Positions 24,375 to 45,218 of a stretch of 48,031 bases of DNA are shown here, piece by piece. This DNA is from Candidatus Aenigmatarchaeota archaeon (GTDB lineage: Archaea > Aenigmatarchaeota > Aenigmatarchaeia > PWEA01). Every line of letters starts with the position of its first letter. Positions within the stretch are counted from its first letter, which is position 1. The DNA lies in the NCBI GenBank assembly GCA_003554845.1, contig PWHK01000008.1, positions 1 to 48,031 on the forward strand. Direction: 5' to 3'. The translations under genes and the position numbers were made by a program. The notes beneath the pieces were generated by a model. That model did not search any database and was not told the DNA's origin. It saw only the letters and a list, made by a program, of their open reading frames with translations.

Positions 24375-25045
24375 CTTCTGTTTAGTATTTTTTCAACTTT
24401 TTCTGTTAAGCCATCACCATGGCCTTTTTTATCAACGGTTTTTATAGCCTCAAGAGCAAGGTCTTCTTCGCCTCCACTGACCCAGACAATTCCATTCTGA
24501 CCTATGATTATCCTGGAACCTGTCTTGTCTTTTATCATCTCCACCATCGAACCACCCTTTCCTATGAGTCTCGGCACCTTGCTTGGACTTATCCTTACGA
24601 TCCTTCCGCCACTCAGCTTCTTGCAGATTCTGTCCTGCATCGAAAGTTTGACATCCTTTTCGCTGGTGACCTTTATGACCTCTGTATAGATTATCTCACC
24701 GATATCGTATACATCTGAAAGATCTGTTTCATCAAGATCTATAAACTCATCTGATCCCTCTGCAAGTGAAAGGTATCCATCGTAGGGCGAATCAAGTTCT
24801 ATCCACCAGTGGCTTGGGCCTATACCCGAAACCTTTCCTACTACCTTGTCACCTTCCTTTGGGATATATCCTCCTGTAAGAGGTATAACACTGATTTTTG
24901 ATTTATCGGTTCTCGCAACTCCAAGAACCCTCGATTTTACTTTTCCGTCTTCTTTGTACGTGCCTCTACCGGACAGGTAGTCACCCTCGGCTAAAACGTC
25001 TCCTGGAAGCACATTTGATTTATCTTCAACTAATTTTTTTCCCAT
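24371..25045 (-). CDS. rrp4: exosome complex RNA-binding subunit Rrp4 (S1/KH)
   Basis: VLPGDVLAEGDYLSGRGTYKEDGKVKSRVLGV, S1 and KH (GRIVRISPSKVPRLIGKGGSMVEMIKDKTGSRIIIGQNGIVWVSG). Confidence 0.96.
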   Translation of the reverse strand: MGKKLVEDKSNVLPGDVLAEGDYLSGRGTYKEDGKVKSRVLGVARTDKSKISVIPLTGGYIPKEGDKVVGKVSGIGPSHWWIELDSPYDGYLSLAEGSDEFIDLDETDLSDVYDIGEIIYTEVIKVTSEKDVKLSMQDRICKKLSGGRIVRISPSKVPRLIGKGGSMVEMIKDKTGSRIIIGQNGIVWVSGGEEDLALEAIKTVDKKGHGDGLTEKVEKILNRR

Positions 25046-25058
25046 TTATTTCACCTCA

Positions 25059-25757
25059 TCAACTATCAATTATTTTTGTCTCGACTTTACCCTTTGTTAC
25101 TGAATTTGCCCTTTTATAAAACTTGTCCTGAAGTCCTGCAGGCATCTTTACAACTGCCCTCCACGAACCATCGTTTCCCCAGTCCTCCTTCTTTATATCG
25201 CCTATGTCCCTTAACTTACCGGAGGCCTGACCGGCGTACTCAGCAGGTACCCGGACTGCTATCTCCACCTCCTCCACAGATATTGGAAGTATGGCCCTTA
25301 TCTTGTCCAACGCATCCGAAACCTGGGTTTCCACGTCCTTCATCTCATCAACGTGGATTCCTGCCTCATCCATTGCATTCATTATCCTCTTCGGAGGATG
25401 TGGCTTACCTGTTTGTGGATTGACGGCCCGTCTTGATATGGTCGCTGCAATGTTCTTCCTCATCTCCTGACGCATCTCTTTTCTCTGCTTGGTTGTCAGT
25501 TGAACTTCGCCGTCTCTTATTATCTTATATACTATTTCCTTGTGATCATTTGTACCGAAGATCCTGTTGAGATCCACGTCACCTGCCCTCTTTCCCTTGT
25601 CGGCATCTACAAATATCTCATCGGCCGCGATAAGATCGTCGAGATCAACGTCCTCACCGTCCTTGACTTCCAATGCCTTCTCGGGGTCAACAAGGACCTC
25701 GAAATGTTCTCCGTACGAATCAAGACGAGCTATAACGGCATCGTCTATAGATATCAT
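25059..25757 (-). CDS. sbds: ribosome maturation protein SBDS
   Basis: DDAVIARLDSYGEHFEVLVDPEKAL, LNRIFGTNDHKEIVYKIIRDGEVQLTTKQRKEM, PKRIMNAMDEAGIHVD. Confidence 0.95.
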   Translation of the reverse strand: MISIDDAVIARLDSYGEHFEVLVDPEKALEVKDGEDVDLDDLIAADEIFVDADKGKRAGDVDLNRIFGTNDHKEIVYKIIRDGEVQLTTKQRKEMRQEMRKNIAATISRRAVNPQTGKPHPPKRIMNAMDEAGIHVDEMKDVETQVSDALDKIRAILPISVEEVEIAVRVPAEYAGQASGKLRDIGDIKKEDWGNDGSWRAVVKMPAGLQDKFYKRANSVTKGKVETKIIDS

Positions 25758-25761
25758 CGGA

Positions 25762-26469
25762 TCACAGGAGCTCTTCGCACTCCCCTTCGTCTAAGTATCG
25801 GAAGCCTCCTTCCTCGGTAATAACTGCCATCTTTACAGTGTTTTTGTTTATATCTGTTTTGCCCTTTCCAAGCACCTTTATGGCGAGATCCTTTGCCTCT
25901 GACTCTGTCATTCCTTCTTTCCATTCTTCTTCAAGGAGCTCCTCTCCTTCCTTTCTTCCCTTTCCTATGACCTGGGCATTCCATCCATAGATATCCCCAC
26001 CGACGTCTGTCTCGAAAACCATAGGCTCTCCTTTGTAGACGCCACCGATCAAAAATGAAACTCCCATGGGCCTAAGACCTCCGTACTGTGTGTGCTGCTG
26101 CTTGAAATCGCCTATCTCTTCTGCAAGCGATCTGACATCGATCTTTTCCTGGTATGAAACCCTGTAAACCTGTGCCTGCTGTCTTGCCTGGTTGACAAGA
26201 ACCCTTGTATCTCCAACCAGTCCAGCTGATGCGGCTCCTATATGCTCATCAAGCTGATGTACCTTCCTGCTGCCACGGTCATCTGACAGTTTATCACACG
26301 GCCTGAGTCCAGCAAGAACAACACCACCTTCAAACTTTATTCCAGCACATGTAGCAGCTCTCTTTATAGCTTCTCTTGCATACTCTACCTGGAAAAGACG
26401 TCCATCGGGCGAAAACGTAACTATAGCCCTGTCGTAACCCATCTTTCCTTGCTTCGGCATCATTCCCAT
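25762..26469 (-). CDS. psmA: 20S proteasome alpha subunit
   Basis: GYDRAIVTFSPDGRLFQVEYAREAIKRAATCAGIKFEGGVVLAG. Confidence 0.97.
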   Translation of the reverse strand: MGMMPKQGKMGYDRAIVTFSPDGRLFQVEYAREAIKRAATCAGIKFEGGVVLAGLRPCDKLSDDRGSRKVHQLDEHIGAASAGLVGDTRVLVNQARQQAQVYRVSYQEKIDVRSLAEEIGDFKQQHTQYGGLRPMGVSFLIGGVYKGEPMVFETDVGGDIYGWNAQVIGKGRKEGEELLEEEWKEGMTESEAKDLAIKVLGKGKTDINKNTVKMAVITEEGGFRYLDEGECEELL

Positions 26470-28063: not shown

Positions 28064-28606
28064 CTACCTACCGGTGTTGTTCATATACCTATCAACCATA
28101 CCCGGATCCTGGCCGTTTTTGTCCAGAGATCTCTTGAGCTGCTCGGGGGTAAATCCCCTGTTGAGATTCCTACGTATCCATCTCTTCATACCGCTTGGAA
28201 TATCATTACCAACGTCTAATCTATCTCCTGTTGTATTGAGCCTGTTCTTCAGTTCTTCTAATCTGTCGTTACTTCTTTGGCTTCTGCTCCGGGGTGAAGA
28301 TCCTGTATCTACTTTATTTCCATCAACGGATCTCTCTTTTTTTCTGGCCTCAAAAACAGGTCCCCTTCCCTCTTCATCTGAGGACTCCGCAGGAGATTTT
28401 ATCGGTCTGTCTTCTGGAAAACGACGATCCCCGTCACATGCCTTTAAACTGGAAATATCCTCCTCCATCTGTTTCTGCTTTTCATAAATACTCTGTAGTT
28501 TATCTTCTATAGTCGGACCTTCGACTATTTCCTCTATTTCCTCTGCAAAGCCGTCGCCTTCGAAGTCCGTTTCCTTAAACTTTTCAAATATATCTCTAAT
28601 TGACAT
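28064..28606 (-). CDS. hypothetical cytoplasmic protein with C-terminal short helical motif
   Basis: Low-complexity linker, C-terminal MKRWIRRNLNRGFTPEQLKRSLDKNGQDPGMVDRYM; overlaps the upstream coiled-coil gene by 11 nt. Confidence 0.72.
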   Translation of the reverse strand: MSIRDIFEKFKETDFEGDGFAEEIEEIVEGPTIEDKLQSIYEKQKQMEEDISSLKACDGDRRFPEDRPIKSPAESSDEEGRGPVFEARKKERSVDGNKVDTGSSPRSRSQRSNDRLEELKNRLNTTGDRLDVGNDIPSGMKRWIRRNLNRGFTPEQLKRSLDKNGQDPGMVDRYMNNTGR

Positions 28607-29612
28607 TTACATCACCTACAGCCTTCAGGGCCTTCAGTAACATCCTCTGACGTTCCTTCAGTTTTTTGTTTTGCTCCAGGACTTCCCCGAACATACTCCT
28701 TACCTCCTTGTATTCTCCCAGAGCTTCCTTTAGATTTTTAGAATCAATGTTTGAGAGCATCTCATCGACGAGATCACTTATCTCGTATACCTTGTTCTCG
28801 ACCTCTTCATCTGTTTCCTCTATCTTTCTCTCCAGTTCCTTCCTCAGATCCTTGAGATCGTCCTCTTTTACCATATCTTCTGTCTTAATATCTATCTTAT
28901 CCACACTTCTCATAAGCTCCGTTATAGTCTCCTTGTTGGAATCTATCTTTCCCTTGTAGTTCTCAAACTCACTGACCTTGTTGGATATCTCAGAAAATAT
29001 ATTTTCTATCTTGGATGCCTTCCTCTCAACATAGTTCTTGTTTTCGTCTATCTCATCAAGCTTCTTGTTTATCTTGTTTGAAAGATCTATTATATTTTCT
29101 ACATCCTTTATACCACTTAGTTTCTTATCGACGTCCCTTATCTTCTCCTTGAGAACTTTAAACTGCTCGTCAAACTCTTCAATCCTTGCCTCGTTCTTTG
29201 AGATCTCTTCCTCCTTCTTCTGCAGTTTTTTCTCAAACCTACCAGGCTGTATCTCTTCGAATATCTCCTTTATTCTGCCGAAGTCTCCTTCGAGATCGTC
29301 AAAGTCCCTCTCTCTGTCCATGAGACTGGATCTCAGTTCACCTATCTGACCGGACAGCTCCTGTATCTGATCCTGAAAGCCAGACCTTTCATCCTGCACC
29401 ATCTCAAGCTTTGCTTCAAGCTTGTCTATACGCATCGTTAGCTTATCTAACTTACTGGCCTCATCGGGTATCTCCTCGACATCCTTGTCTTCGTCTTCAA
29501 CAACAAGACCTCCTTCCTCTTCCTCTATCTCATCAAACTCTTCCTTGCTAATGACGTTTTCCCTGTCCTCGGTGTCTTCTTCAACCAAGTCCTCTATATC
29601 GTCTTCGGCCAT
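28596..29612 (-). CDS. long acidic coiled-coil protein
   Basis: 338 aa, almost continuous heptad-like sequence, no TM or signal peptide; 8 nt downstream of the giant ATPase gene. Confidence 0.8.
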   Translation of the reverse strand: MAEDDIEDLVEEDTEDRENVISKEEFDEIEEEEGGLVVEDEDKDVEEIPDEASKLDKLTMRIDKLEAKLEMVQDERSGFQDQIQELSGQIGELRSSLMDRERDFDDLEGDFGRIKEIFEEIQPGRFEKKLQKKEEEISKNEARIEEFDEQFKVLKEKIRDVDKKLSGIKDVENIIDLSNKINKKLDEIDENKNYVERKASKIENIFSEISNKVSEFENYKGKIDSNKETITELMRSVDKIDIKTEDMVKEDDLKDLRKELERKIEETDEEVENKVYEISDLVDEMLSNIDSKNLKEALGEYKEVRSMFGEVLEQNKKLKERQRMLLKALKAVGDVNVN

Positions 29613-29620
29613 CTGTTCAC

Positions 29621-32600
29621 CTACTTTAATTTATCCTCAAGGGAGTTTATGTAAATTTCGGTCATCCTGAAGTTACCCGACTTAAGCTTGTTCTTTGCCA
29701 TTCTCAGAGATGTTCTAAGATCAAAGACATCCTCGCCTCTGTCATCCATATCATCGACCTTGGCTTCGAGTTCGTCAAGCTTCTCGGCAAACTCCTCGTA
29801 CTTCTTCAGCTCCTCTTCCTTGAGTTTGTGTGGATTGTGCCACGTGGGCCTGAACCTCACAAACCACGGATCACCGTCGTTATACTGGGCGTGCTGCATC
29901 ATACAGACACCTATACCCTGTCTTGTTATCCTTTTAGCGTACTTTTCTCCGTACTTGTCCTTTGCTTTTCTTATATCCTTTATAGCCTTTGTATTGAACT
30001 GGACATCCGTTAGAACATTACCCTCTATAGCCTCCTTGAAGTCAGCCAGAACCTGTGAACACATTATAAGACCTATTCCCCATTTTCTGAACTCTCTGCA
30101 TGCCCTTTCAAGTGCCTTGTAGCCACCCTTACCGCCGTACTTCTCAAGAAGCCTATGAACTTCGTCGAATACCACAACAAGTTTAAGCTCCTCGGACTCC
30201 TCCCAGTTTATCTCGAACATCGAGTCTATTATATTTCTCACTGCCCTGTCGAACTCCTCGGTGGAAAGTTCATTTAATGTGAAAACCGTTATCTCACCCT
30301 CCTGTGTAAGCTCCTGGAAGTCTATATCCCTGTCTGGATCATCCATCTTGTGTATCATACCAGGATAGCTTCTCCTTTTTCTCTTGTCCATTCCGTGGTG
30401 ACTGTAGTGCTTAAGAAGCTCCTCGTCCTCGCACTGGTTGACAAATCCTGTCCACTGGGCTGTGGGATCAAATACAACGACGGGTATTCCCTGATCCAAA
30501 GCCTCCTCTGCAAAGACAGAGGCACCAACCGACTTACCTGCGCCTGTGGCACCTGCAACCAGGGCATGTGTCTTTAGGTCGTCGGGATTGTAGTATGCCT
30601 TTTTATTGCCTCCTGCAAGCTTTCCTATCCAGAAGGATCTATCGCTCTTCTGTGGTATTGCATTATCATCTACCGGGAAAAGATACCTCTGCTGTTCTTC
30701 CTTGGCCTTCTTCCACTCTTTATACTTACCCTTTAGATGAACGGTGCTTATGACTATAGCCAGTATAGCAATCGGGAGCCCAAGGAAAAGAAGTGCTTGG
30801 CCTGCTGTAGTTGCCCAGAAAGTTTCAAGTACATGGAATGTTTGCATGTCTCTCACACCTTTGTTGTCGAACTTGGCCCATACCTCTAAGTTATATTTAC
30901 CGGGTTCCGTGTCCTCGGGTATCTCCATCTGTCTGAAGCCCGAATAACTGCCTGTAAACGTCACATTTTCTCCTGCTTCAACCACTGTCCTGTTGTCGGG
31001 GCCTCTTGCTGTGTAGGTAGCCTCTATATCTAACTCATTTGTACTCTCGGTATTTAACTCTAAACGGAAGGTTACGTTGTCGCCTCTCTCCACCTCATCA
31101 TCAACAATATTCACATCAAGAGAAAGATACTCGTCGCCCTCTTCCAGTACATTAACCTCAAAGGGCAGGGTCCTCTGTCTGCCTCTTGCAGAAAGAAGTA
31201 TATCACCAGAAAAGGTACCAGGCCCTGTTTCTACCGGAACCTGTAGGTCCATCTCCAGTGTTCTTGAGCTTGTCGACTCCAGTTCAATCGAGCTCTCTTC
31301 AAACTCCAACCAATCGGAAACATCACCTAGAGGCTCGAGATCAACGGTTAGATTTTCATGTATATTGTTTGTCAACATAATCCAGAAGCTTCTCATGTCA
31401 CCTGGGAAAAGGTCCACGCTATCGAGGTTAGTTTCGAGGTCGAATGGGAAAGGATCCTCCTCTTCGCCGGGCATTGCACCGTTTCCTCCACTGTCGCCGG
31501 TATCCCCTGTATCATCGGGCGTGTATCCTGCACAGTCAATAAGTTCGCCGTCGGATATGCATGCCTCTGCAAGAATATAGGCACTCCCTGGTTCTTCGTC
31601 CAAGAAGTTTAGGGTGTTTTCCTGTGTACTGGGGCTATAATCAAAATAGTGTTCCTCACCCAAAGTTATGTTACAGTCTCTATATTGATAGTCCCATTCA
31701 CTGCACTTCAAAACCCTAAGGTTTTCTGTGTTCTGGACTCCACCGAGGCTTCGGCCTGAGAAATCCATGGTTATATTTCTACGTGAAAATGTGAGATTTT
31801 CGTCTGCTTCAACCACAATACCAAATATAGGATTCTGGAACTTTCTTGAAATAGTTCTAAGGGCGCCATCGGCTGCATCCGAATCGGGTATATAGTCAAA
31901 CTGAAGGGGATCCTGTAGTTCATCACCCGAAGTCGAATCGTTTATATCTAGGGATTCAAAAATTATCTCCTGGCCGAATACCTCCACATTCATATCGTAC
32001 CCACGCCTATGTACTTCCCAGTCGAACTCGGATGTTTCTTCACCGACTGTAAACTCATGTATGGGATGTGGCCAGAACTCCCTTCCTTCTCTGTAGAAGG
32101 TAAAGTTTGCAGATATATTGTCACCGGTCGGCTTATCGAGACTGCCTCTGAGATCAACGGGCTCATAGACACTGAACCATCCACGGGTACTGTTAACAAG
32201 GCCTCCTCCGAGATCGCTGTATTCTCCCAGCTCTCCTGTATCGTTGGCATAGACAGTTATGTCATAGTCTCCGACGGGAAAATCTTCACCGCCTGTACCA
32301 TCAAAGTCTGACTCGGTGAGATTGAATATAAACCTATCTCCGTTCCTCTCGTAGTCTGTTATGTTTAAAACACCATTCGGTATATCTATGCCTACCCAGG
32401 CCTCGTCCACGCCTGTGTTATCTGTTATGTCAACCTCTATCTCCTTGTAACCATAATCGCGTACAGTGTCCTTGTCTATAGGATCCACGTACACATCAGA
32501 AAATACAGGAGAAACAACATCTTTGTATATTACAGAGTCCTCGTTCTCTCCATAACTGGTCAAGTTGTCGTGTGTTGCCGCAACCCTTATACTGTTCTTT

Positions 32601-35600
32601 ATGGGGTTACCTGGGACCCACGGAACTTCACATTTTATAATCCATGCAGCAGACAATGTATGGAAGGGTTCATCTGTTTTCGTACACATCTCACCATCGA
32701 CCCATACATCAAACTCCACGTCATCATCCACAACATCATCAAGGCGTGTTACATTTACGCTTAGTTCAACTTCGTCACCGACGTTCAATGGACCTTCATG
32801 GCTGTCTTTGGTTGGGTTCAAAACATCAACAGTTAGGTCAACTATATCCAGTGTAGCGGTGAAGTTTATGTAGGACGGTATAAGATCATCTATAGGCTCC
32901 AGAGTTATATCTGCAACATAGGTTCCATTCTCGTAGTCTTCTTCACCTCTCTGATGTACTACCTCTAAGATCACAGAACTCTGGTTGGCAACTTCTACTG
33001 TCTGCTTTGATGTAGTTATATAGTCCGTATGCCCCTCTGTTCCATTACCGTCGAAATATACATCAAAGGAACTGTTTTCTTCAATGTTGTTGAAAATTTC
33101 TACCTGGCCTATAACACCCTCCATATCACCTGTACCTATAGTTTTGTTCATAAACTCAGGTTCCTTCTCAATGTACCAGTCTGGAATATCTACAGTAAGG
33201 TTAAAGACCGAAACATCCCAGCATCTATCCTCCGGAGAGCAAGTGGAGTTTGTAGCATTTGCGACTATATCGGCAGTATACAAACCTGGCTCTATGTCCA
33301 TGGGCAACGTGGCATTAATATCCACTGTTTTATTATGGCCTCTTTCTATATCTCCGATGTTTCCCGAAACAGAAGTCCAGTTGTAGATGTTTTCGTTGCT
33401 GACGTTGGTCATATTTATCGTTACATTTTCGACTTCCGTATTACCAAAGGCTTCGACCGAGAAGTTGGCAACGACCCCTTCGAAACCAGCAGATTCTGAT
33501 GAGTTCACTGTATCCTCCATGATATTAAGAGCAGTGTTGTCCATGATTTCAAGTATAGTCGAGTTCTCCGTTGTATTTTCACTTCCATCGGAGTTGGTCC
33601 AGTGGAGGGTTGTATTAATATCGGTAGTTCCTGGGTCCGCGTACTGTGTTACATTTACTTCGGCTGTCCTTGTGCAGTTTTCACCGTCGTCGAGAGGTGG
33701 ACATTGGACATCCTCTACATATATACCTTCTTCTGTGTCTACAGTTATCTCGGGTGAAAGCATAAGGCTTCCCTCGCTCTTGACTGTGAGATTTATACCA
33801 AAGGTATGGTTGTTCAACCTGGTTATGTCTTCTGCCTCTTCAAATGACGGCTCCTGGAGAAGTGTTCCAGTTGTATTGCCCGAGTCAACCACAAATGTCA
33901 GTTCGCCTTCGTTCGTTGATGTCACATTGTAAAATACAGAGGACTGGTCTGTTATGTTACAGGTTAGATTGTACTCGCCTTCCTCCGAGGTCTGGAACCA
34001 GTGGTATCCCAAACCGGAATCCAGGGTAATGTTGGTTCCCATTTTATCTGTATCGTTGTAGAAGTCCACATAATAACCTCCTATACCCCCGGAGCTGTGT
34101 GAATCATAAACACCGCAGTCAAATCTTACATCTGCATTCTCCCCACAGATCCAGGAGTCATCTCTAAGGGTACAGTAGTCGGATGTCAGATCTATATCAC
34201 CTACTTCAGACCATCCGTATAGATCAAAGTTCAATGTAGTAAAGTTCGGTACATAGTATTCACCGTCTGCAGAAGCATATAGCCTCCTGTCTCCCACCAG
34301 CTCACTGATATCGGGTTCCCACGGTCCATCGTCTTCCATCACCCAATCTCTGAAAACCACATCCTTATCCAGAGGAGCCCCGGACTGTGGTGTCAGGCAC
34401 TCTCCGTACTCATCTGATATACATATACTATCCACAAGAAGATGTGGGGCATCGCGTCCATAACCTGCATTCCCATCGTACTCAACAACAACAGATATCC
34501 AGTCTGAATCTACAAACGACCCATTGTAGCATGTGGTTGAATTCCATGTAGACTCATCCTCTCTGAGCCTGTCCATATCAAAGTCCATATGACAAGATCC
34601 CTCTCCGGCATAAACAGTCGCCGTTCTCTCGTCATCAAAGGTTCCCCATGCCTTGTACACAAGGGAGAGATACTCCGAGTTGATTTTTCCAGGAACAGTA
34701 ATGTTGAGATATGTTTTGCCGTCGAATGCAAATACATGGGCAGAGTAGTTCCCACTGTAGCTATCGTTTTCTATAAAAACATAGTCATTGTAGTCGTCGC
34801 TTCCGGGCGTTCCATCTGTATAATTCCATCCCGACAGACTTCCGCCTTCAAATCCTCCATTCTCTATGTAATGTATCCTATCCTGTGGCTGCTGGTTGGA
34901 TTCATTCCACATAATCCGGTAGTCCCTGCTCTCCCCGGTCTCTAAGTCCACAAGGAAGACTATATCTGTGTAGTTATCCACATATTCCTTTTCATAGTCC
35001 AGTTCCTCCTTTTTTTCATCTGTCCAGGGTCTTACTTCCATGGAAACATTTCCATCTGAAACAATCCGGGTATCGTTCACTCTCCAATTACTGAAATCAA
35101 CGCCTATTTCCTCGAGCCAAGATCCGTTTATCCTTAGGGGCTCATCTGTTCTGTTTAAACCCATGTTCTCTGTCAAACCTATCCTTATGCTATCCTTCCT
35201 GACAAGGCTCCAGTTAGCCGTGTAGCCATCGATCTGCACACCCTCACAGGAATCGTTTACCTCGGACCCAAGATCTATTGTTTTGTTTTTGTGTTGAAGT
35301 GAACCCGACTGAGGGTCTGTTATATTAATATCAAGACTGTCCCATACCTCCACATCCGAGGAGTCAATTCCATCGACAACTGTATAGAACTGGCTTTCTC
35401 CACCGACTTCTACAGTAATACTGTAACCCCCTCTATCTACATCACAGTCTGGTTCCCAACTGTACATACATACCCCATCACCGAAACCACCTGAACCTGC
35501 TTCCTCTCCGTTGTAGTAGTATGAGCAATCGTGTCCTTCTTCAGAAACTTTTTCGCCGTACTGGTCGACAAGCCCACTCTGAAGTTCCGATGCTGTATTT

Positions 35601-38488
35601 CTCAGGAGCACATCGCCGTCCAATGGCTTATGTATATCTACATTCAACAGGCCATGGATATCAACCAAGAATTCTGTTGTATTTGTATCCATGTAATGTT
35701 CATCGTCCGCGACACCAGCCTTCCATATCTGGGATCCTACAGAATAATTCTGCCCTGGTGAAAAGTTATAGGTTCCATGTCCCGTCTCGTTTGTCAGGCT
35801 TTGGTTTCCGCTGTCCCAGCTTTCACCATCTTCAGTTACCCAGAAACTGAGACTGACATTCTCTCCAACTTCGTGAAATCCCTCTTCTTCATCAATTACA
35901 GCTACCTCAAAATAAGTTTCCTCGGACCTGTTGACCGAAGTCTCGTTGCCCTGTATGTGCTCCACGGAAACTGAGTGCCTTTGTCCCATGGGACCATGGA
36001 AATCCGTTGTGTTCACAGGCGAATGGAATATTTCTACAGGGTCCCCGGGACTGTAGTCAAAGTACTCAAATTTGTACGTGCTGTTACCACTCCAGTCCAT
36101 GTCGCTCTGTATATCCTCAAAGGTTGCTGTACCTTGGCCTTCAACCATATCTGTACCCTTTTTGATCCACTGGCCGGACTGATTTGGCTTTACAAAAAGT
36201 GTTACATTAACATTATCGCCGTCTTTGTCTTCCACGTCCACATAAAAGTCAAATTTTGACCCCCAAATGTCGGTCTCTGGATCAACACTGGTATTTTCAA
36301 TAACAGGTTTGTAGTTCGTGGAACCTCCCACAATATAGTTCATGGAAGATGTCTCCGGCTGCTTCCATTTGAAGAAATCAACTACTCCACTTTGATCTGT
36401 ATCCTCCTTACAGACGTAGAAGGTTTCACCTTCTACCTCCCTTTCTACGTACTCTACATCATCGCCATGACAGTCACCCTCTTCGTCTGGAGTCAGATCC
36501 ATCCAGAAACCGTCGACATATACCTCAAGGAAAGAGTCCTCTGCGACCTGTTCCTCGTCTATGGTTGCATTTGCGGTTACATTTTCAAAAACTTGATTCG
36601 ATGTACTCCATATAGTGTGGTTCTTTCTCCAACTATAGTCGTCGGTTTCCTCTGTAAACCATTGCTCCGATGAGTTCATAAGAACAGGAACATCTTGTGG
36701 CATTGTATCATCCCAGAAAACCACAGGTTCCGGAAGATCTCCCTGGGTGCTATAGAGAACAAAACTATCTATATCACATACATAGCCCTCGGATGTCTCC
36801 ACGGTATCGTACTGTGTTCCATTGAAGTCACATACACTGGCATCCTGACTTACGTTTATGTATCTTACTTCAACGTCGTTGACAGGCCTTTCTTCGAAGT
36901 TCAGTTTAATCGATTCGCTTCCTATAGACTCATTGACCATTATATTTCTAGTTCTTGACCAGTCTGCATTTTCCTTGGTTACGATATCGGACACGTTGTA
37001 TCTGTACTCTACATCCAGATTCGAAACATTCAACCTTCCTGCAAAGTCAGAACCAAAGGTAAAGGGAACAGAACAAACTCCTTCTACGGGAGAGCAATCT
37101 TCTAAGAAATCCTGGATTGACTCTTCAAAACCTTCTGCTCTTTCGGATTCCCTGAGCTTTGTATCGGCCGACTCCCATACCCTCTGATCACCGATATCCA
37201 GAGAAGCATTGGTTGGGAAATACTCAAAATTAAATATATACAGATTCCCATCCCCTGCTGCAACCTCATCTCCCTGGAGGTCCGGCATCAAATTTCCTGC
37301 AGTAACCGAATGAACATAGCTTTCGGTCTGGAAGTCCCATATAAGATCCCCATCATTTGAAAAAACATGCACCCTTTTGTTGTCATGTGTACCTGCAACT
37401 ATCTCCTTTTCTCCACTGTACGGACTTTCGGTTATTATATCATAAACTTCTACGCTGTTTATTCTGTAGTCGAGGGACTTTGACCATACCACATCCAGCT
37501 CTGGAGCTTCGGAAGTTATATTGTAAACTGTTATCTCGTAGTCTGTGTCGTCCCCTACAACAATTTCATCCCATTCGGATTCAACAATACTGCTCACCTT
37601 TATAGTGGTAACGGTCCTCTCTGTGTCCTTCGAAAACTTCTCATGACCTGTTCTGTTGTATATCCGGATATGGTTTCCCGTTGCAACAGCAATATCAAGT
37701 CCTTCGTCCGGTAAAAGATTTCCTGTGCTTACATCCCTCACGACACCTTCGGTCGATACATTCCAAACAACTTCATCTTCTCCACCAAGAACGTAAAGTC
37801 TTGTATCCTCTGATCCTGCTATTATCTCATTGTTCTCATCTCCAGTAACATCTGCGATCTCAACTGTTCTTGCGTCTCCACCGGTTGTATATGTCCATAA
37901 CTCATTACCATCCTTATCAAGGACGTATACATCGTTGTCCTCGTTTGCAAAAACAACTTCATTGTCTCCATCACCTGTTACGTCACCTATATCCGTGGAG
38001 TATGTGGTATGTGTAGCAGGAGGTTCATCGTATGTCCATATAATATCACCTGTGTCACCTTCTACCAAAAACACACTTGAATCGCCTTGTGTACTGTACT
38101 TTCTACCAGAAACTATCTCATTGTCTCCATCACCTGTTACGTCACCTACAGAAAGACCTTCTACACCTGCCTCTGTTATTTCCCTTTTGTAAACCGTAGT
38201 TATTTCACCTGTTAGATTAACGCCTGTGGTCAGAACCGTGCTGTTTTTAGGTATATCGACGTAGTAAGTCTCTGTTCCACCGTCATCAGGGAAGTCTATA
38301 TCCTTCGTTGGCTCTGTATCATTGAAAGACGTTTCTCTGTATAAAAATGAGAACTCGTTAAGATCCAGTGTATATGTCTCCTGCGACAGAAAGTAACCTG
38401 TAAGAGAACCTGAAAACACGACAGCAAACAAAACTAGAACAACTACTCCAAATACTACAGATATCATCCGGGGGTGCTCATATTTCAT
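29621..38488 (-). CDS. giant surface protein: FG-GAP/PQQ-like propeller + Ig/NEW3-like ectodomain + TM + cytoplasmic HerA/DUF87-type ATPase
   Basis: 2955 aa. N-terminal TM; seven DVTGDGDNEIV-type blades; Asn-sequon-rich middle; NEW3-like DLFPGDMRSFWIMLTNN; TM ALLFLGLPIAILAIVISTV; Walker A AGATGAGKSVGAS (~30530-30565) and Walker B KLVVVFDEVHRLL (~30150-30185). Confidence 0.9.
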   Translation of the reverse strand: MKYEHPRMISVVFGVVVLVLFAVVFSGSLTGYFLSQETYTLDLNEFSFLYRETSFNDTEPTKDIDFPDDGGTETYYVDIPKNSTVLTTGVNLTGEITTVYKREITEAGVEGLSVGDVTGDGDNEIVSGRKYSTQGDSSVFLVEGDTGDIIWTYDEPPATHTTYSTDIGDVTGDGDNEVVFANEDNDVYVLDKDGNELWTYTTGGDARTVEIADVTGDENNEIIAGSEDTRLYVLGGEDEVVWNVSTEGVVRDVSTGNLLPDEGLDIAVATGNHIRIYNRTGHEKFSKDTERTVTTIKVSSIVESEWDEIVVGDDTDYEITVYNITSEAPELDVVWSKSLDYRINSVEVYDIITESPYSGEKEIVAGTHDNKRVHVFSNDGDLIWDFQTESYVHSVTAGNLMPDLQGDEVAAGDGNLYIFNFEYFPTNASLDIGDQRVWESADTKLRESERAEGFEESIQDFLEDCSPVEGVCSVPFTFGSDFAGRLNVSNLDVEYRYNVSDIVTKENADWSRTRNIMVNESIGSESIKLNFEERPVNDVEVRYINVSQDASVCDFNGTQYDTVETSEGYVCDIDSFVLYSTQGDLPEPVVFWDDTMPQDVPVLMNSSEQWFTEETDDYSWRKNHTIWSTSNQVFENVTANATIDEEQVAEDSFLEVYVDGFWMDLTPDEEGDCHGDDVEYVEREVEGETFYVCKEDTDQSGVVDFFKWKQPETSSMNYIVGGSTNYKPVIENTSVDPETDIWGSKFDFYVDVEDKDGDNVNVTLFVKPNQSGQWIKKGTDMVEGQGTATFEDIQSDMDWSGNSTYKFEYFDYSPGDPVEIFHSPVNTTDFHGPMGQRHSVSVEHIQGNETSVNRSEETYFEVAVIDEEEGFHEVGENVSLSFWVTEDGESWDSGNQSLTNETGHGTYNFSPGQNYSVGSQIWKAGVADDEHYMDTNTTEFLVDIHGLLNVDIHKPLDGDVLLRNTASELQSGLVDQYGEKVSEEGHDCSYYYNGEEAGSGGFGDGVCMYSWEPDCDVDRGGYSITVEVGGESQFYTVVDGIDSSDVEVWDSLDINITDPQSGSLQHKNKTIDLGSEVNDSCEGVQIDGYTANWSLVRKDSIRIGLTENMGLNRTDEPLRINGSWLEEIGVDFSNWRVNDTRIVSDGNVSMEVRPWTDEKKEELDYEKEYVDNYTDIVFLVDLETGESRDYRIMWNESNQQPQDRIHYIENGGFEGGSLSGWNYTDGTPGSDDYNDYVFIENDSYSGNYSAHVFAFDGKTYLNITVPGKINSEYLSLVYKAWGTFDDERTATVYAGEGSCHMDFDMDRLREDESTWNSTTCYNGSFVDSDWISVVVEYDGNAGYGRDAPHLLVDSICISDEYGECLTPQSGAPLDKDVVFRDWVMEDDGPWEPDISELVGDRRLYASADGEYYVPNFTTLNFDLYGWSEVGDIDLTSDYCTLRDDSWICGENADVRFDCGVYDSHSSGGIGGYYVDFYNDTDKMGTNITLDSGLGYHWFQTSEEGEYNLTCNITDQSSVFYNVTSTNEGELTFVVDSGNTTGTLLQEPSFEEAEDITRLNNHTFGINLTVKSEGSLMLSPEITVDTEEGIYVEDVQCPPLDDGENCTRTAEVNVTQYADPGTTDINTTLHWTNSDGSENTTENSTILEIMDNTALNIMEDTVNSSESAGFEGVVANFSVEAFGNTEVENVTINMTNVSNENIYNWTSVSGNIGDIERGHNKTVDINATLPMDIEPGLYTADIVANATNSTCSPEDRCWDVSVFNLTVDIPDWYIEKEPEFMNKTIGTGDMEGVIGQVEIFNNIEENSSFDVYFDGNGTEGHTDYITTSKQTVEVANQSSVILEVVHQRGEEDYENGTYVADITLEPIDDLIPSYINFTATLDIVDLTVDVLNPTKDSHEGPLNVGDEVELSVNVTRLDDVVDDDVEFDVWVDGEMCTKTDEPFHTLSAAWIIKCEVPWVPGNPIKNSIRVAATHDNLTSYGENEDSVIYKDVVSPVFSDVYVDPIDKDTVRDYGYKEIEVDITDNTGVDEAWVGIDIPNGVLNITDYERNGDRFIFNLTESDFDGTGGEDFPVGDYDITVYANDTGELGEYSDLGGGLVNSTRGWFSVYEPVDLRGSLDKPTGDNISANFTFYREGREFWPHPIHEFTVGEETSEFDWEVHRRGYDMNVEVFGQEIIFESLDINDSTSGDELQDPLQFDYIPDSDAADGALRTISRKFQNPIFGIVVEADENLTFSRRNITMDFSGRSLGGVQNTENLRVLKCSEWDYQYRDCNITLGEEHYFDYSPSTQENTLNFLDEEPGSAYILAEACISDGELIDCAGYTPDDTGDTGDSGGNGAMPGEEEDPFPFDLETNLDSVDLFPGDMRSFWIMLTNNIHENLTVDLEPLGDVSDWLEFEESSIELESTSSRTLEMDLQVPVETGPGTFSGDILLSARGRQRTLPFEVNVLEEGDEYLSLDVNIVDDEVERGDNVTFRLELNTESTNELDIEATYTARGPDNRTVVEAGENVTFTGSYSGFRQMEIPEDTEPGKYNLEVWAKFDNKGVRDMQTFHVLETFWATTAGQALLFLGLPIAILAIVISTVHLKGKYKEWKKAKEEQQRYLFPVDDNAIPQKSDRSFWIGKLAGGNKKAYYNPDDLKTHALVAGATGAGKSVGASVFAEEALDQGIPVVVFDPTAQWTGFVNQCEDEELLKHYSHHGMDKRKRRSYPGMIHKMDDPDRDIDFQELTQEGEITVFTLNELSTEEFDRAVRNIIDSMFEINWEESEELKLVVVFDEVHRLLEKYGGKGGYKALERACREFRKWGIGLIMCSQVLADFKEAIEGNVLTDVQFNTKAIKDIRKAKDKYGEKYAKRITRQGIGVCMMQHAQYNDGDPWFVRFRPTWHNPHKLKEEELKKYEEFAEKLDELEAKVDDMDDRGEDVFDLRTSLRMAKNKLKSGNFRMTEIYINSLEDKLK
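37959..38148. repeat. 31-nt identical direct repeat within adjacent propeller blades (copies 37959-37989 and 38118-38148)
   Basis: TCATTGTCTCCATCACCTGTTACGTCACCTA occurs twice, 159 nt (53 codons) apart. Confidence 0.9.
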
Positions 38489-38775: not shown

Positions 38776-41700
38776 TCACCTCTCTGATCTAATGCTTCCT
38801 ATTCTTTTGTAGGAGATATAACCTGCACCGGCCACCGCCAGTATGATCAAGAGCACAGTTATTGCTCCACCGGCTGGCTCAAATGAGCCCTCTACATAGA
38901 AGTTTCCAGTTCCAGAAGCCAGTGTTGTGAAGTCTTCTCTGAAACTTACCCTGGCCATGTAGTCACCCGACGGTAGATTTGGAGAGAGAATATATTTCTC
39001 TGTGAGTTCCGTTTCCTCAAGAGGCTCAAGATCCTCTATCTCTACTATATCCGACAGTACAACGTTCCTTCCCGGTCCAACTATCTCCGATTCCAGTCTT
39101 GCCCTGTCTATCTCCTGACCTCCGTTTATAACCAGTATACTTATGTTTACAGGTGAATCGAGATCATACGAGTCCTTCTGTGGTGTAACTATAACCGTAG
39201 GATAGGACTGTTTGTATCTTATCTTTATCTGTCTGAGTTCATCTGGACCTATTTCATCTATAAATACAGAAGTAGATGCTTCTCCTCCTGTGTACTGGAG
39301 CTCTTCTCCAAAACCTGTCTCAACACTTATAACATCATCATACCGGATCGGTAGGTTGAAAACTACTTCCTCATAGGAATCCCTTGCAAAGTTTCTTACA
39401 AATACGTCCATTTCAAGCTCTACCATCTCACCGGGTAGCTCATCAACAACTTCTACATCTCTGTCAACCTCCATGACAGGTGCAGTCAAGGCCCTAATCT
39501 CGTAACTGCGTGTAGTCAAGGCAGGTATCCTTTCTTCCCATTTAAGTACCATTGAATCTTCTCCTTCCCTTAGGTCACCCTCTATTCTGACTGTTTCTCC
39601 GTCTTGATCTGTATACTGAACCCATGCCCTCTCTACTGCGTTCAGTACATCAACCTCGAAGGTTCCACGGACAGGTCTTGGATTTGGATTGTAAACTTCA
39701 ACGGGCTTCATCCACTCTGCCATATCTCCAACGGATACTCTTCTTGTAAGGCTAACGTCACCTTCTCTGATATCAAGATCCCTTGTAGGTTCAGGAACGG
39801 AAACCCTGACATCTCCTATGGCGGTTGCTCCTAGTTCAACTCCTGTGGCAGGGTCTATACCTGCAAGGGTTGCAGGCATCTCGTAAAGTCCCGAGTCTGT
39901 TATATTGAACTTGTATGAGACCCTTATCATTTCGTTATCATTAAGATGCCATCCATCACCGTCCTGTTCATCAAGGTATTCATATGCTTCGACCGTCTCA
40001 CCCGAAGGCAGTTCAACTGTTCCAAGGTACTCTATGTGATACTCTGTGGTCCATTCCGTCCATGTCTGGCCGCCATCGTCCGAATATTCAACTATTACAT
40101 CTCCATCTGTGAAGTTTGTTCCCTGTGGAACGTAGTCTGTAAACATTATACCTTCAATTCCCTCTTGTTCATCGGTTGCATCTATTACCTCTACTCTGAG
40201 AACACCATCTATCAGTGTAGGCTGTTCCGGGTCTTCTGCAACAAGGTCCTTGAAACCTATCAACCTCTTTGCAGAAACACTCAAAGTCTGCTCGGGCTGA
40301 ACCTCGGTAAGCGGAGTTCCTGATTCTGTGGTATATGTATTTTCACCGTCAAAGGTAAATACATTACCAGTCTCGGTAGTATAGTTTGTATATACACTGT
40401 ACTCGAGCCTTATCTGCTCGGACTGATTGAGATTACTGTCCAGACCTTCGATGGCTTCGACGTTGCCTATTGAAATCTCTACAAGACCGTCGTCTCCTTG
40501 ACTTGTGGGCTGTGTTACCTGTACAGTTACATCGTTGGTTATGTCCTGTGTGGTTTCGTCGTCAAAGAAAACCTGTACACTTTCTTCGTCTACAGCAAAG
40601 AATGTATCATCGCCGTGTCCTAAATCGGAAGGAGATTCTCCATCATCTGTGGTTCCTGGAATTCTTGAAACTATATCCACGCTTTCTGCCTTTGCCTCGG
40701 TAGAACCCTGGTGTGTCGTATTGTCTGTTATATTTATAATCTCGCCCTGTGTTCCCGGATTGAGTACACCATCCAGGGTCTTCTGGTTTATCATATCAAC
40801 CTTGTAGAGAACTGGCATATCAAGTGTAGTATTTATATATGCAAAGTGGTTTTCGGCATCTGTATCGTTCCAAACAACCTCCCATTTGAACTCTGTTGCA
40901 TAATAAGGCTTAGCTGCGTCGGTGTCGTACCACTCGCCGCCTCCTGCCACATCGTCTGTTGTGTATATTCTTCCATGTTCACCTGTTATATCCTCGGTGA
41001 AGCCCTCTTCCATATGTTGAACTCTCTCATCCAGCTCTCCCTGGTCTGTGACGTTGTAAATGGCCCACTCATGCACTGTGTATGTAAGGTTGTTTGCAAG
41101 ATTTCTCATAAAACCTCTTACATTCCATCCCTGGTCCGTTTCAGATAGATCCGTACCCTGCCTTATAGGACCTCTGGAAAACCTACCTTCTATGGTCTTC
41201 CCTGTAAGTGTTTCAATATCAGACCAGTAGGATCTTGCTCCCCTGTCCTCTGAATCTAGATCGACAGAGTCACCATCGAAATGCTCGTGCTCTTCCATCT
41301 CACCCTGGAAGGTTACTGTCTCGGATGAATCTGTTCCTATATCACCTGTCCACTCGACGCGGTCTTGGTTCCCATCTTCATTGGAATCACTTGAACTTGC
41401 ACCTTCACCTGTAGTTGTAATATCTATAACTGAACCCTCCTCTGTATCAAACTGAACCGCTATGTCCACGCCATTCAGTGTATGGACCGTCGAAGGATTT
41501 GTAACGGTCAGTGTGAAGTCCATCGTATTAACCGGTGTATCTACGTTATCAGAGCTGTATAGATCCTCACCGCCCTCCACGTTACTGTAGTCCAGAGAAA
41601 GTTGTATAACCGGGGCCTGATCGGCGTCGTCTATATTATAATATAGGCTTTGGTCGTTTTCTGTTGTATTAAGGTAAAGATACGACCTATCCCATGGTTC

Positions 41701-42033
41701 TCCAAAAGAAGAAAGTGCTCCTTTGTATGCAGTACTAGACTGAAGATCCGTGTCTGTAGTATCTGATATGTTGACTCTTATGTACTGAAGAACATCCTGT
41801 GTATTTGAAACTGCAACCTGAGAATATCCATATCGGCATGGATTTTCATCACCGCATTCAGTCCAGGTAACAGAGTTATCTATACTCCCGTTATGATTGT
41901 AGTGTGCCTCGACCTGTTCTGTGAGATAGGCAGCAGGTCCAACGGTCTGTGCCAGAGCCGGAAGACTCAAAAATCCAACAGCAAGTAAAAAAGCGGTAGC
42001 AGCTACGATCTTCTTCATGGCAATCAATTTCAT
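38776..42033 (-). CDS. large secreted surface protein with C-terminal TM anchor (paralogue A)
   Basis: Signal peptide MKKIVAATAFLLAVGFLSLPALAQ; many N-x-S/T; C-terminal ITVLLIILAVAGAGYISYKR. Start may be the internal ATG at 42018. Confidence 0.85.
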   Translation of the reverse strand: MKLIAMKKIVAATAFLLAVGFLSLPALAQTVGPAAYLTEQVEAHYNHNGSIDNSVTWTECGDENPCRYGYSQVAVSNTQDVLQYIRVNISDTTDTDLQSSTAYKGALSSFGEPWDRSYLYLNTTENDQSLYYNIDDADQAPVIQLSLDYSNVEGGEDLYSSDNVDTPVNTMDFTLTVTNPSTVHTLNGVDIAVQFDTEEGSVIDITTTGEGASSSDSNEDGNQDRVEWTGDIGTDSSETVTFQGEMEEHEHFDGDSVDLDSEDRGARSYWSDIETLTGKTIEGRFSRGPIRQGTDLSETDQGWNVRGFMRNLANNLTYTVHEWAIYNVTDQGELDERVQHMEEGFTEDITGEHGRIYTTDDVAGGGEWYDTDAAKPYYATEFKWEVVWNDTDAENHFAYINTTLDMPVLYKVDMINQKTLDGVLNPGTQGEIINITDNTTHQGSTEAKAESVDIVSRIPGTTDDGESPSDLGHGDDTFFAVDEESVQVFFDDETTQDITNDVTVQVTQPTSQGDDGLVEISIGNVEAIEGLDSNLNQSEQIRLEYSVYTNYTTETGNVFTFDGENTYTTESGTPLTEVQPEQTLSVSAKRLIGFKDLVAEDPEQPTLIDGVLRVEVIDATDEQEGIEGIMFTDYVPQGTNFTDGDVIVEYSDDGGQTWTEWTTEYHIEYLGTVELPSGETVEAYEYLDEQDGDGWHLNDNEMIRVSYKFNITDSGLYEMPATLAGIDPATGVELGATAIGDVRVSVPEPTRDLDIREGDVSLTRRVSVGDMAEWMKPVEVYNPNPRPVRGTFEVDVLNAVERAWVQYTDQDGETVRIEGDLREGEDSMVLKWEERIPALTTRSYEIRALTAPVMEVDRDVEVVDELPGEMVELEMDVFVRNFARDSYEEVVFNLPIRYDDVISVETGFGEELQYTGGEASTSVFIDEIGPDELRQIKIRYKQSYPTVIVTPQKDSYDLDSPVNISILVINGGQEIDRARLESEIVGPGRNVVLSDIVEIEDLEPLEETELTEKYILSPNLPSGDYMARVSFREDFTTLASGTGNFYVEGSFEPAGGAITVLLIILAVAGAGYISYKRIGSIRSER

Positions 42034-42050: not shown

Positions 42051-45000
42051 TTAAAGCTTTTTCTTGGCCTTTCTTCTTATTTCATCTATTCTTTCCTGAT
42101 AACGATCCTTCTTACGGTAAAGTCTTGACAGTATCAATCCGACTACAGCGGCAAAGACCGCTATGATATGCCAAACCTCGACGGCGAATAATTCATCCCT
42201 TCCTTCGACATAGAAGGAGGACTCCCTCGAAGTAATAGTCTGGAAGTTTCGTCTGAAAACGGCCTTCATGTTGTATTGGCCTTCTGGAAGACCGGCGAGA
42301 TCCACAGTCCTGAGAATTTCCTTACTGATATTGTCCATGGGTATCAACTCGGAGTAAACCTGTCTATGGCTTGGTTCAGGGCCTGTTACAGTGAGTTCCA
42401 CATGGCCTCCGACATGCCCCTCCTCTCCCACAACAAGTATGGTTATATCGGAACTCTCCTTGTGCGTGTAGCTGTAGCTGTCTGGACTTAAAACAAGTAT
42501 AGGCGGGAGCTCCCTGTATACTGTTTCAACAGAGACCGTCTCTCCCGGACCAATTGATCCAAGGTGTATCTTTGTTTTCTCGCCGGACCCTATGTAGTCT
42601 ATGTCTTCCCCATCGATTGTAACAGAACTTATACTTTCGTAGGGTATATCAACGAGATGGCTTACATCCTCGTACTCATGGGGTGCGTAGTTGCGGAATT
42701 CCTTATTGAAGATGAACTCGACCGACGTGTGGTTTGATTCAACTATACCTATATCTTCCTTATCGAGAACAACAGGTGAGGTATGGGATTCAAATTCAAA
42801 TATTCTTCTCTGGAGAGGCCCCATGTCTACTTCCCAGTTTACAAACTTACGACGGAGTTTTTCCTTAACCTCGAGCTTCTCTCCATCCACATAACAGGAA
42901 AAGGCCTCGTCTGGAAGGTATATCTGAAGAGTCCTTTTCATTCGCTCCTTGTTGGGATTGTTTACAGTAACTTCCCTTGTCCATCTCACAGGCTCGTCGA
43001 CGATGGCTTCATCCTGGAACCATCTATCTCTGTGTATACCCATGGGCTCGGCCTCCCAACCAACCCTTACAGGAGAAATCTTATCATCGTTTACAAATAC
43101 ATCATCGTAGTAGTCGTAGTACGATACCCTTGTAACTATACTGTTTCTGCCGAAGTTTGCTCTTGTATCGTATGTTACATTGATCATTTCTCCATCGTCG
43201 AGTCTAAGTCCCTGATCTCTGTCACTCATTATACTTATCTCGTAAAATGAAAATCCCTCACCATTGACAGTTCTTTCACCTACCTTTTCTATATCGTACT
43301 CGTCGGGCATTAGCTCGTTCCACTGGCTGTCCTTCTTGTATTGGACTTCTACTGAGGGTTCCTCCAGATGGTTACCTGGTTCAAGAAGCACACCGAGATC
43401 TATATTTCTCATACCTCTGTTTCCTGTATCCCTCACCATATCGGACCTTGTTATCCTGACGAGATTTCCTGTAACAACGGACGCAGTCGACTCGATGTTC
43501 TCGAGATCAAGCCTCTTTGGAGCAGGAGGAGGTGAAGGATCAGGTGGATCTGGATCTGGCTCATCGACACCATCCAAGGATATATTTTCCTCGGCAAACT
43601 GCGAATCAGGAGTACCGGAAGACGACCAGGACGTTGAGTTCGAGTAGAAGGAGTATTTCCTGTCTTCATCCGAGCTTCCTGAAGCGATGGTGTACTCAAG
43701 GAGTATATCCTCATTAGGTTCAAAGAAGTCCGTGGTCTCGTTGGCCATGACTTCTGCCCTGACATAACCATATGAACCACTACCAGGCTCCTCTATAACT
43801 ATATTAGTATCGTTTGTTATATCCCGTGTTCTCGGCTGACCATTTACAAAGTCCCTATAAGCAACAGATACATCATCTATGTTCCAGTATTCACTGTCTC
43901 CATCGGTAGACTCGTTTGGAACGATAGAGAAAATCTCTGTTCTGTTTGCACGGGTTTCTTCTTGGCCTATGTTTTTCAGTGTATCCCTTACACGTATCTT
44001 CCTGCCGTCCATACTGTTCTGCTGAATGGAAAGATCCTTCTGGAGATCGCCTTCGAAAAAACGTATAAGAGGCATTTCCACTACCTCCGACTCAACGTAC
44101 TCTCTATATATAGAATCACCCCACTGCACAGACCAGTCGAAGGTTGCAAAGTAGTACTGCTTCTCCTCCTCGTCGGAGTAGTATGTATCGGTGTATATGG
44201 CTTCACCGGGTTCGATTTGCTCGTTTACAGTTGCGTTTATCAGTGGCTCATCTTCGTCTATTCTGTAAAGTTCCCAGCCATCCACATTGTACTTTAGGCT
44301 GTCTGCTCGGTTCATAAGAAATCCTTCTATCTCCCAGTTTTCTCCGTCCTTTTGAACCATATCTATTCCGTTTCTGGCAGAGGCCCTTGAATACCTTGCA
44401 TGGAAGCTTATGTCGGTAAAGGTGGAGTCGTAGTTTTCGTATGTGGCCATGTACTCGCCTCTATCCATATCGACCGGAACGGCTGTGTTGAAGTTGACTC
44501 CGGGTTCAGTAACACCTCTAAACGATATCATCACAGGCTCCCTTTCGTAGAGGTTCCCCGACCACTCGACTGTCTCATAGTGGTCGTTCGATCCTTCTCT
44601 TTTTACCCTCCTACAGCGGTCGTAGTCACCTGTACAACCATGGTCTCTGAGATTAAAGGAATCCTGTCCCTGTGGACCTGTCTCTGTAGGAACCTTGAAA
44701 AAGAACTCTGCGCCGTACATATCCTCCGAGCTTTCGAGCACAACACTGAACTCCAGGACGTTTTCACCGCCATGTATCTCCTTTCCTCCTCTGATGTTCA
44801 TGTATTCGATCTCTACATCCAATCTGGGTGTTTTCCAGGGATCAATTGTATAGTCCAGAGCCTTGTCGGAATCCTCGATTTCCAGATACATCTTTGTAGG
44901 ATCGCCTGCTGGTGAAGAAACCGCAGGCCTGTATGCCTCCAAAGACTCCAGATTTGTTCCGTTTGTCGTAGTAACTGTAAGTGTGGTGTCCTTTAGTATA

Positions 45001-45218
45001 TCGTTGGAAAATACGCCGATAGAACCCTTTCTATCGACGGATCTGACCGTTCCGTTTGGACGGTAATCTGTGATCACCTTCTCATCTATATGGCTCGTTG
45101 GATTGACTACCTCCGCAGTAGCAACTGAGCCAAACCACATAAAAGTAGCCATAAAAAGTATCAGTACAAGGGTTTTCATCTTCATAACAATCGAATTCAT
45201 TTGATTATTTGGAGCCAT
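42051..45218 (-). CDS. large secreted surface protein with C-terminal TM anchor (paralogue B)
   Basis: Signal MKTLVLILFMATFMWFGSVATAE; aligns by eye along its length to the 38776-42033 protein; C-terminal TM and basic tail RIDEIRRKAKKKL. Confidence 0.85.
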   Translation of the reverse strand: MAPNNQMNSIVMKMKTLVLILFMATFMWFGSVATAEVVNPTSHIDEKVITDYRPNGTVRSVDRKGSIGVFSNDILKDTTLTVTTTNGTNLESLEAYRPAVSSPAGDPTKMYLEIEDSDKALDYTIDPWKTPRLDVEIEYMNIRGGKEIHGGENVLEFSVVLESSEDMYGAEFFFKVPTETGPQGQDSFNLRDHGCTGDYDRCRRVKREGSNDHYETVEWSGNLYEREPVMISFRGVTEPGVNFNTAVPVDMDRGEYMATYENYDSTFTDISFHARYSRASARNGIDMVQKDGENWEIEGFLMNRADSLKYNVDGWELYRIDEDEPLINATVNEQIEPGEAIYTDTYYSDEEEKQYYFATFDWSVQWGDSIYREYVESEVVEMPLIRFFEGDLQKDLSIQQNSMDGRKIRVRDTLKNIGQEETRANRTEIFSIVPNESTDGDSEYWNIDDVSVAYRDFVNGQPRTRDITNDTNIVIEEPGSGSYGYVRAEVMANETTDFFEPNEDILLEYTIASGSSDEDRKYSFYSNSTSWSSSGTPDSQFAEENISLDGVDEPDPDPPDPSPPPAPKRLDLENIESTASVVTGNLVRITRSDMVRDTGNRGMRNIDLGVLLEPGNHLEEPSVEVQYKKDSQWNELMPDEYDIEKVGERTVNGEGFSFYEISIMSDRDQGLRLDDGEMINVTYDTRANFGRNSIVTRVSYYDYYDDVFVNDDKISPVRVGWEAEPMGIHRDRWFQDEAIVDEPVRWTREVTVNNPNKERMKRTLQIYLPDEAFSCYVDGEKLEVKEKLRRKFVNWEVDMGPLQRRIFEFESHTSPVVLDKEDIGIVESNHTSVEFIFNKEFRNYAPHEYEDVSHLVDIPYESISSVTIDGEDIDYIGSGEKTKIHLGSIGPGETVSVETVYRELPPILVLSPDSYSYTHKESSDITILVVGEEGHVGGHVELTVTGPEPSHRQVYSELIPMDNISKEILRTVDLAGLPEGQYNMKAVFRRNFQTITSRESSFYVEGRDELFAVEVWHIIAVFAAVVGLILSRLYRKKDRYQERIDEIRRKAKKKL

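Follow-up and report, generated by a model that had tools for sequence, protein, structure and literature searches.

The window, the whole stretch of 48,031 nucleotides analysed here, contains an 8.9-kb gene that appears to join a large surface domain to a P-loop ATPase, and the questions that it raises are whether one such protein exists, to which family it belongs and what an ATPase would do inside the cell at the end of a surface protein. The source archaeon is tiny and, judging from its group, probably host-dependent. The gene and the outer parts of its product map as follows.

29621..38488, minus strand: gene for a SPEARE-type surface ATPase of 2,955 aa (uninterrupted open reading frame, ATG start; full-length orthologues)
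38390..38488, minus strand: N-terminal signal or signal-anchor segment, residues 1–33 (hydropathy; model helix 6–32)
37229..38197, minus strand: seven-bladed PQQ/BBS1-like β-propeller, about residues 98–420 (Pfam, PDB, AlphaFold2, Foldseek)
30815..38389, minus strand: ectodomain, residues 34–2558, variable, with 92 N-glycosylation sequons (hydropathy, orthologue alignment, sequon count)
30728..30814, minus strand: transmembrane (TM) helix, residues 2559–2587 (hydropathy; continuous helix in the model)

An earlier note on this DNA, which named no strand, had claimed a single polypeptide carrying both an integrin-like ectodomain and the ATPase, and had named two separate genes as the finding that would speak against it. 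The 2,955-aa minus-strand frame is without a stop; the plus strand over 29621–38488 is full of them. Seven complete orthologues of 2,909–2,978 aa, which come from several taxonomic families, align with it end to end, and the alternatives of two genes or an assembly chimera are therefore rejected. The orthologue G004 is from the same genus as the window genome; outside the genus, identity is 21–46% in ectodomain blocks versus 48–65% in the ATPase. The protein encoded at 29621–38488 is genuine: a cell-surface protein of the SPEARE type, 2,955 residues long, with its ectodomain outside and its ATPase inside the cell. Elsewhere in the window are a housekeeping cluster (22879–26469, minus strand; proteasome alpha, SBDS, Rrp4 and two RNase PH exosome genes) and an AN1 zinc finger fused to a Rhomboid protease (19306–20136, plus strand).

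In hydropathy plots the TM segment at residues 2559–2587 is the one further hydrophobic segment besides the hydrophobic N-terminus, a feature of 16 of the 17 complete family members, and basic residues follow it directly, as expected for a positive inside. All 92 sequons of the window protein lie in the ectodomain; the 368 cytoplasmic residues contain none, an outcome with a probability of about 1.2e-6 if they had the sequon density of the ectodomain, and among about 65 family members the density per 100 aa is 5.09 in the ectodomain versus 0.12 in the cytoplasmic part. It is because of this sequon distribution and the basic stretch after the TM that the ATPase is placed inside the cell; the proposed division, with about 2500 residues outside, agrees with hydropathy, with a single TM near the C-terminus and with the sequons.

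The propeller has Pfam matches at residues 137–312, with FG-GAP_3 slightly above cut-off, and a mean AlphaFold2 pLDDT of 87 for the region. Its sequence matches in the PDB are PQQ-type and designed propellers, and its Foldseek matches are the KICSTOR, BBS1 and Cake propellers. A propeller had thus been recognized correctly, but "integrin-like" is a loose description of a PQQ/BBS1-type fold with about seven blades, a count taken from the strand list over residues 98–420. The "NEW3-like" character ascribed to the ectodomain is a hint, below the Pfam cut-off at E 0.017, and the Ig-like Pfam matches in the window protein are likewise weak and below cut-off; the structural model of the ectodomain extends to residue 500.

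The cytoplasmic part comprises the following.

29834..30655, minus strand: HerA-class P-loop ATPase core, residues 2612–2885 (Pfam, family alignment, HerA alignment, model, Foldseek)
30530..30553, minus strand: Walker A, GATGAGKS, residues 2646–2653 (K2652 invariant in 46 sequences)
30146..30178, minus strand: Walker B and catalytic Glu, VVVFDEVHRLL, residues 2771–2781 (D2775 and E2776 invariant)
30077..30097, minus strand: REFRKWG, residues 2798–2804, aligned with HerA "REGRKFG" (alignment to 4d2i; invariant)
29624..29821, minus strand: C-terminal helical/coiled-coil tail, residues 2890–2955, conserved (alignment, model)

The three motifs quoted in the earlier note, GATGAGKSVG (which includes K2652), FDPTAQWTGF (residues 2673–2682) and VVVFDEVHRLL, are all present. 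Across 46 sequences K2652, D2775, E2776, R2798 and R2801 are invariant, and DPTxQW, DEVHRLL and REFRKWG vary little or not at all; invariance of the catalytic residues speaks for a predicted active enzyme, in which R2801 of REFRKWG is a candidate arginine finger. Membership of the HerA/FtsK superfamily, which a profile search of the C-terminal part could have contradicted, is supported by such a search (DUF87 E 5e-9 and HerA_C E 4e-9, both above the Pfam cut-off), and profile and fold searches both put HerA first: the model of residues 2551–2955 (mean pLDDT 91.6) retrieves Sulfolobus HerA as the top-ranked Foldseek match, and a PDB profile search gives eight HerA-type entries at about E 3e-7 or better, with the first coupling protein or FtsK only at E 0.002–0.1. 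Every one of the 46 members is matched by the NCBIfam models for CedD and HerA (best E 7e-17 and 2e-14, respectively), and two are matched by VirB4_CagE. The CedD and HerA scores are, however, far below the equivalog cut-offs (for the window protein, 35.6 versus 600 bits for CedD and 39 versus 800 bits for HerA). Because these two families match best and yet so far below cut-off, the window ATPase is, by its sequence, a HerA-clade ATPase of its own kind, nearest to HerA/CedD and not to VirB4.

The window ATPase shares with the HerA helicase (4d2i) the RecA-like core, Walker A and B, an REGRK-type arginine motif and an SQ motif; it differs in its family signature (DPTxQWTGF and DEVHRLL), in its membrane anchor and in lacking the HAS-barrel, with about 50 residues between the TM and the P-loop core. 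Like CedD and CedB, the DNA-import ATPases of Sulfolobales, it is a HerA-clade ATPase in a TM protein, but those proteins have no giant ectodomain and the window protein has no counterpart of the VirB4-like N-terminal domain of CedD and VirB4. Of the named families whose function has been tested, the closest is CedD, a TM-containing HerA-like ATPase that is essential for DNA import in Saccharolobus (PMC11868833).

The earlier statement that this architecture has no described function has to be withdrawn insofar as it took the architecture to be undescribed. Giant nanohaloarchaeal proteins termed SPEARE have been described, with the intracellular part as the most conserved, and Aenigmarchaeota are named among the carriers of SPEARE-like sequences (Hamm 2019, PMC6642349); a later redescription lists a signal, propellers, about 75 Ig-like domains, a TM, a VirB4/TraG-like ATPase and a coiled coil (Reva 2023, PMC10266531). 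Over 403 aa, from the TM through the tail, the window ATPase has 53% identity to a 623-aa ATPase of a nanohaloarchaeal operon (L109), and the family profile matches the adjacent giant, a 9,433-aa open frame, at E 3.6e-175. In genome G329 the 9,433-aa open frame is followed by the genes for the 623-aa ATPase and for a coiled-coil protein of 520 aa, then by one for a product of 108 aa and by a PAC2 gene; from these sizes and this order (PAC2 fourth downstream) we infer that the operon is SVXNc_0300 to SVXNc_0296. Because of the 53% identity to the ATPase of a nanohaloarchaeal SPEARE operon, it is virtually certain that the window protein family is SPEARE, with the topology given above.

The correspondence extends to the signal, the propeller or propellers, a large β-rich ectodomain, one TM, the same ATPase domain, a C-terminal coiled coil and a coiled-coil gene downstream in the window and in the nanohaloarchaeal operons; the ATPase is the most conserved part of the window family, as published for SPEARE (PMC6642349). 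The window protein has one third of the length of the nanohaloarchaeal SPEAREs (SVXNc_0300, 9,409 aa; BNXNv_0298, 8,880 aa; Ca. Nha. antarcticus, 5,998 aa) and is present as a single copy in its genome. At least one laminin-G domain belongs to the 2019 description (PMC6642349), and the 2023 redescription does not rest on one; unlike in the SPEARE descriptions, Pfam detects no protease domain in the window protein and no laminin-G domain across its whole length, in a type of scan that can miss the latter. In proteomics of a SPEARE, the ectodomain turned up in another gel size range than the TM/cytoplasmic part (PMC6642349), so that the ectodomain may be cut from the ATPase after export and a permanent covalent link is not to be assumed.

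The profile search recovers the ATPase module in 60 of the 160 genomes searched from the phylum and in 96 of the 396 archaeal genomes sampled, other phyla included; in the latter set, ordinary HerA-like proteins probably account for two or three of the weakest matches. A single-sequence search finds the module in 57 of 148 near relatives, where the few weakest matches are probably of this ordinary kind too, and a single-sequence scan for related loci found only three close relatives. Open frames of the family reach 11,262 and 12,145 aa. The survey of DUF87 fusions and their neighbourhoods that the earlier note had suggested thus reveals a widespread family, usually with a coiled-coil gene downstream. 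Variants of the arrangement occur. L117 (7518–19998, minus strand) contains two ATPase-bearing genes in tandem, the first of them with the 12,145-aa open frame, and a single coiled-coil gene behind them, and is a duplicated motor with one common partner; the member at L121 (4581–9500, minus strand) has about 365 additional C-terminal residues beyond the ATPase tail, unlike the usual end; and in L057, L058, L054, L116 and L111 an additional gene of 255–339 aa lies between the giant and the coiled-coil gene, its product having a hydrophobic N-terminus in L054, L057 and L058.

The downstream gene of the window is the following.

28596..29612, minus strand: operon partner P0002, a 338-aa cytoplasmic, highly charged coiled-coil protein (8 bp downstream of the giant gene)

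P0002 has neither signal nor TM by hydropathy and contains an N-terminal ENVIS.EEF motif and a core IGELRSS motif. Among the 70 family copies with readable downstream sequence (a few two-ATPase operons being counted twice), 61 are followed in a same-strand run by a charged coiled-coil gene, 50 adjacent and 11 after one gene; for background, 10% of 239 open reading frames of 200 aa or more are equally charged. Most partners, including those at loci of other phyla, carry the core LxxKIEKLEGKLE...ERIxxLSEEIGELRSMIxEREK...P, and an N-terminal ENVITxEEF motif is common to the partners of near relatives. The IGELR motif is absent from the three nanohaloarchaeal partners, and for these it is position and composition that argue for homology to P0002. 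The pairwise distances between motors correlate with those between partners (r 0.69; permutations reach at most 0.24; species history uncorrected), which fits co-inheritance, and paralogues of the two agree in their segregation in 9 of 14 comparisons, the differences being mostly uninformative. Position, charge and motif tests were used here in place of neighbour clustering by connected components, which merged coiled coils with the ATPase family. The coiled-coil protein is very probably a functional partner of the SPEARE ATPase. The near-invariable downstream coiled-coil gene with its IGELRSM motif is new; the available portions of the SPEARE descriptions (PMC6642349, PMC10266531) contain no mention that we found of such a partner.

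The partner core shows a weak resemblance to the archaellum FlaC profile (hhalign 75%, a control coiled coil reaching 45%). In the partner proteins scanned, FlaC_arch stays below its Pfam cut-off throughout (P0002, 14.6 versus 27.8 bits), and it was not recovered in A2 at E 0.01; with dozens of other sub-threshold coiled-coil matches in the same search, membership of the FlaC family is not claimed. Matches to SMC, NPV_P10, ATG16 and the like in Pfam and NCBIfam were set aside as unspecific coiled-coil matches.

Upstream of the giant gene lie two further exported proteins.

38776..42033, minus strand: exported protein with signal and C-terminal TM (members of its family also lie next to the ATPase gene in relatives)
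42051..45218, minus strand: paralogue of the 38776..42033 product, 25% identity over the full length (sequence comparison)

Neither product belongs to a Pfam family. Homologues of the pair adjoin the giant ATPase gene in L038, L039, L040, L043, L044, L048, L049 and L050, which is suggestive of an association of this exported-protein family with the ATPase gene; the paralogue pair is possibly a second surface component of the locus. A third exported protein is encoded at 45236–48031 (minus strand), its 5′ end cut by the contig edge; it has two TM segments and matches bacterial Ig-like domains weakly.

The explanation that we consider best, with a probability of roughly 0.55, is that the window protein is a SPEARE adhesin for host contact, with a motor ring tethered to the membrane that moves a macromolecule, nucleic acid being the likeliest one. 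The variable ectodomain would bind a host or partner cell, and six copies would join their ATPase domains as a ring directly under the membrane, with the TM preceding the motor in the chain as it does in CedB/CedD, VirD4 and FtsK. The coiled-coil protein would dock on the cytoplasmic tail as an adaptor or scaffold, and ATP hydrolysis would move the macromolecule across the contact. A contact-dependent motor ring working on nucleic acid is favoured because of the variable binding exterior, the constant motor from a polymer-pumping superfamily and the DNA import by CedD. Taken singly, a motor ring is somewhat likelier than a non-translocating ATPase, and nucleic acid as the cargo is a tentative choice. 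The fullest form of the proposal is a two-gene contact machine, common among small archaea and separate from type IV secretion, in which a giant adhesin with its HerA/CedD-class motor and a coiled-coil adaptor would take up nucleic acid from the attached host cell; we consider it rather unlikely.

For nanohaloarchaea, the ATPase has been proposed to be VirB4/TraG-like and part of a type IV secretion system with a channel by which protein effectors are injected into the host, and the gene behind the giant has been reported as a VirB4/TraG ATPase with PF03135 (Reva 2023, PMC10266531); for SVXNc, cytoplasmic bridges of up to 11 nm have been reported. The window ATPase does have the superfamily and the P-loop in common with VirB4/TraG, together with weak TraC/TraD matches, so that the original comparison with these motors stands at the level of the FtsK-HerA superfamily, but the sequence match is weak or absent and is outranked by HerA/CedD, and the PF03135 N-domain is missing from the window protein. 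In L108, L109 and L110 the product of the gene behind the giant is made up of a signal peptide, an ectodomain of about 200 residues, a TM and this same ATPase module, and Pfam gives no PF03135 match in the two of these neighbour proteins scanned (E 0.05). From its sequence this "VirB4" neighbour is a mini-SPEARE, as we name it here, and the published PF03135 is not reproduced, our operons having been compared with the published ones by matching size and gene order; unlike those operons, the window locus has no mini-SPEARE gene between the giant and the coiled-coil gene. PF03135, PF19044 and PF04610 were not found in the 94.9% complete window genome, the PF03135 and PF04610 negatives being weak by themselves since few archaeal controls match these profiles; type IV pilus-type ATPases (PF00437) are present in that genome, and no dedicated membrane channel protein was identified. 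The data argue that the family label, as judged from these profile comparisons, belongs on the HerA/CedD side rather than with VirB4 and type IV secretion, and we regard a secretion component as improbable.

Other readings keep the adhesin and change what the ATPase does. It could drive clustering, folding, extension or retraction of the adhesin with no cargo crossing the membrane, as the covalent linkage of the two, the conserved coiled-coil partner and a motor that stays constant while the ectodomain varies widely in size might suggest. FtsK/HerA superfamily members of known function, however, move polymers. The possible separation of ectodomain and ATPase in vivo (PMC6642349) also speaks against such an engine, which is unlikely but the least so among the rivals. 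More doubtful is a contact receptor, in which propeller and ectodomain would sense the host and ATPase and coiled-coil protein relay the signal inward: the propeller lies close to the N-terminal tip and the partner core has its weak FlaC-like match, FlaC being an accessory protein of the archaellum, but that match is sub-threshold throughout and no known signalling output domain is present. The published proposal of a DNA-degrading restriction-type enzyme (Hamm 2019, PMC6642349) has a counterpart in a weak ResIII match to the P-loop; ResIII is, however, a helicase/ATPase model and below cut-off for the window protein, profile searches found no nuclease domain in it, and the proposal was also rejected by Reva 2023 (PMC10266531), so that we give it hardly any weight.

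How host-dependent DPANN archaea obtain what they need from host cells is a question in which SPEARE proteins are leading suspects, and no SPEARE biochemistry was found in the literature. The architecture itself was known already; what is usefully added is the partner gene and the placement of the ATPase on the HerA/CedD side. Compared with a SPEARE of 9,000 aa, a member of 2,955 aa is much more tractable, its cytoplasmic domain is short at 370 residues and well predicted, and through the conserved coiled-coil gene the SPEARE family gains a testable partner.
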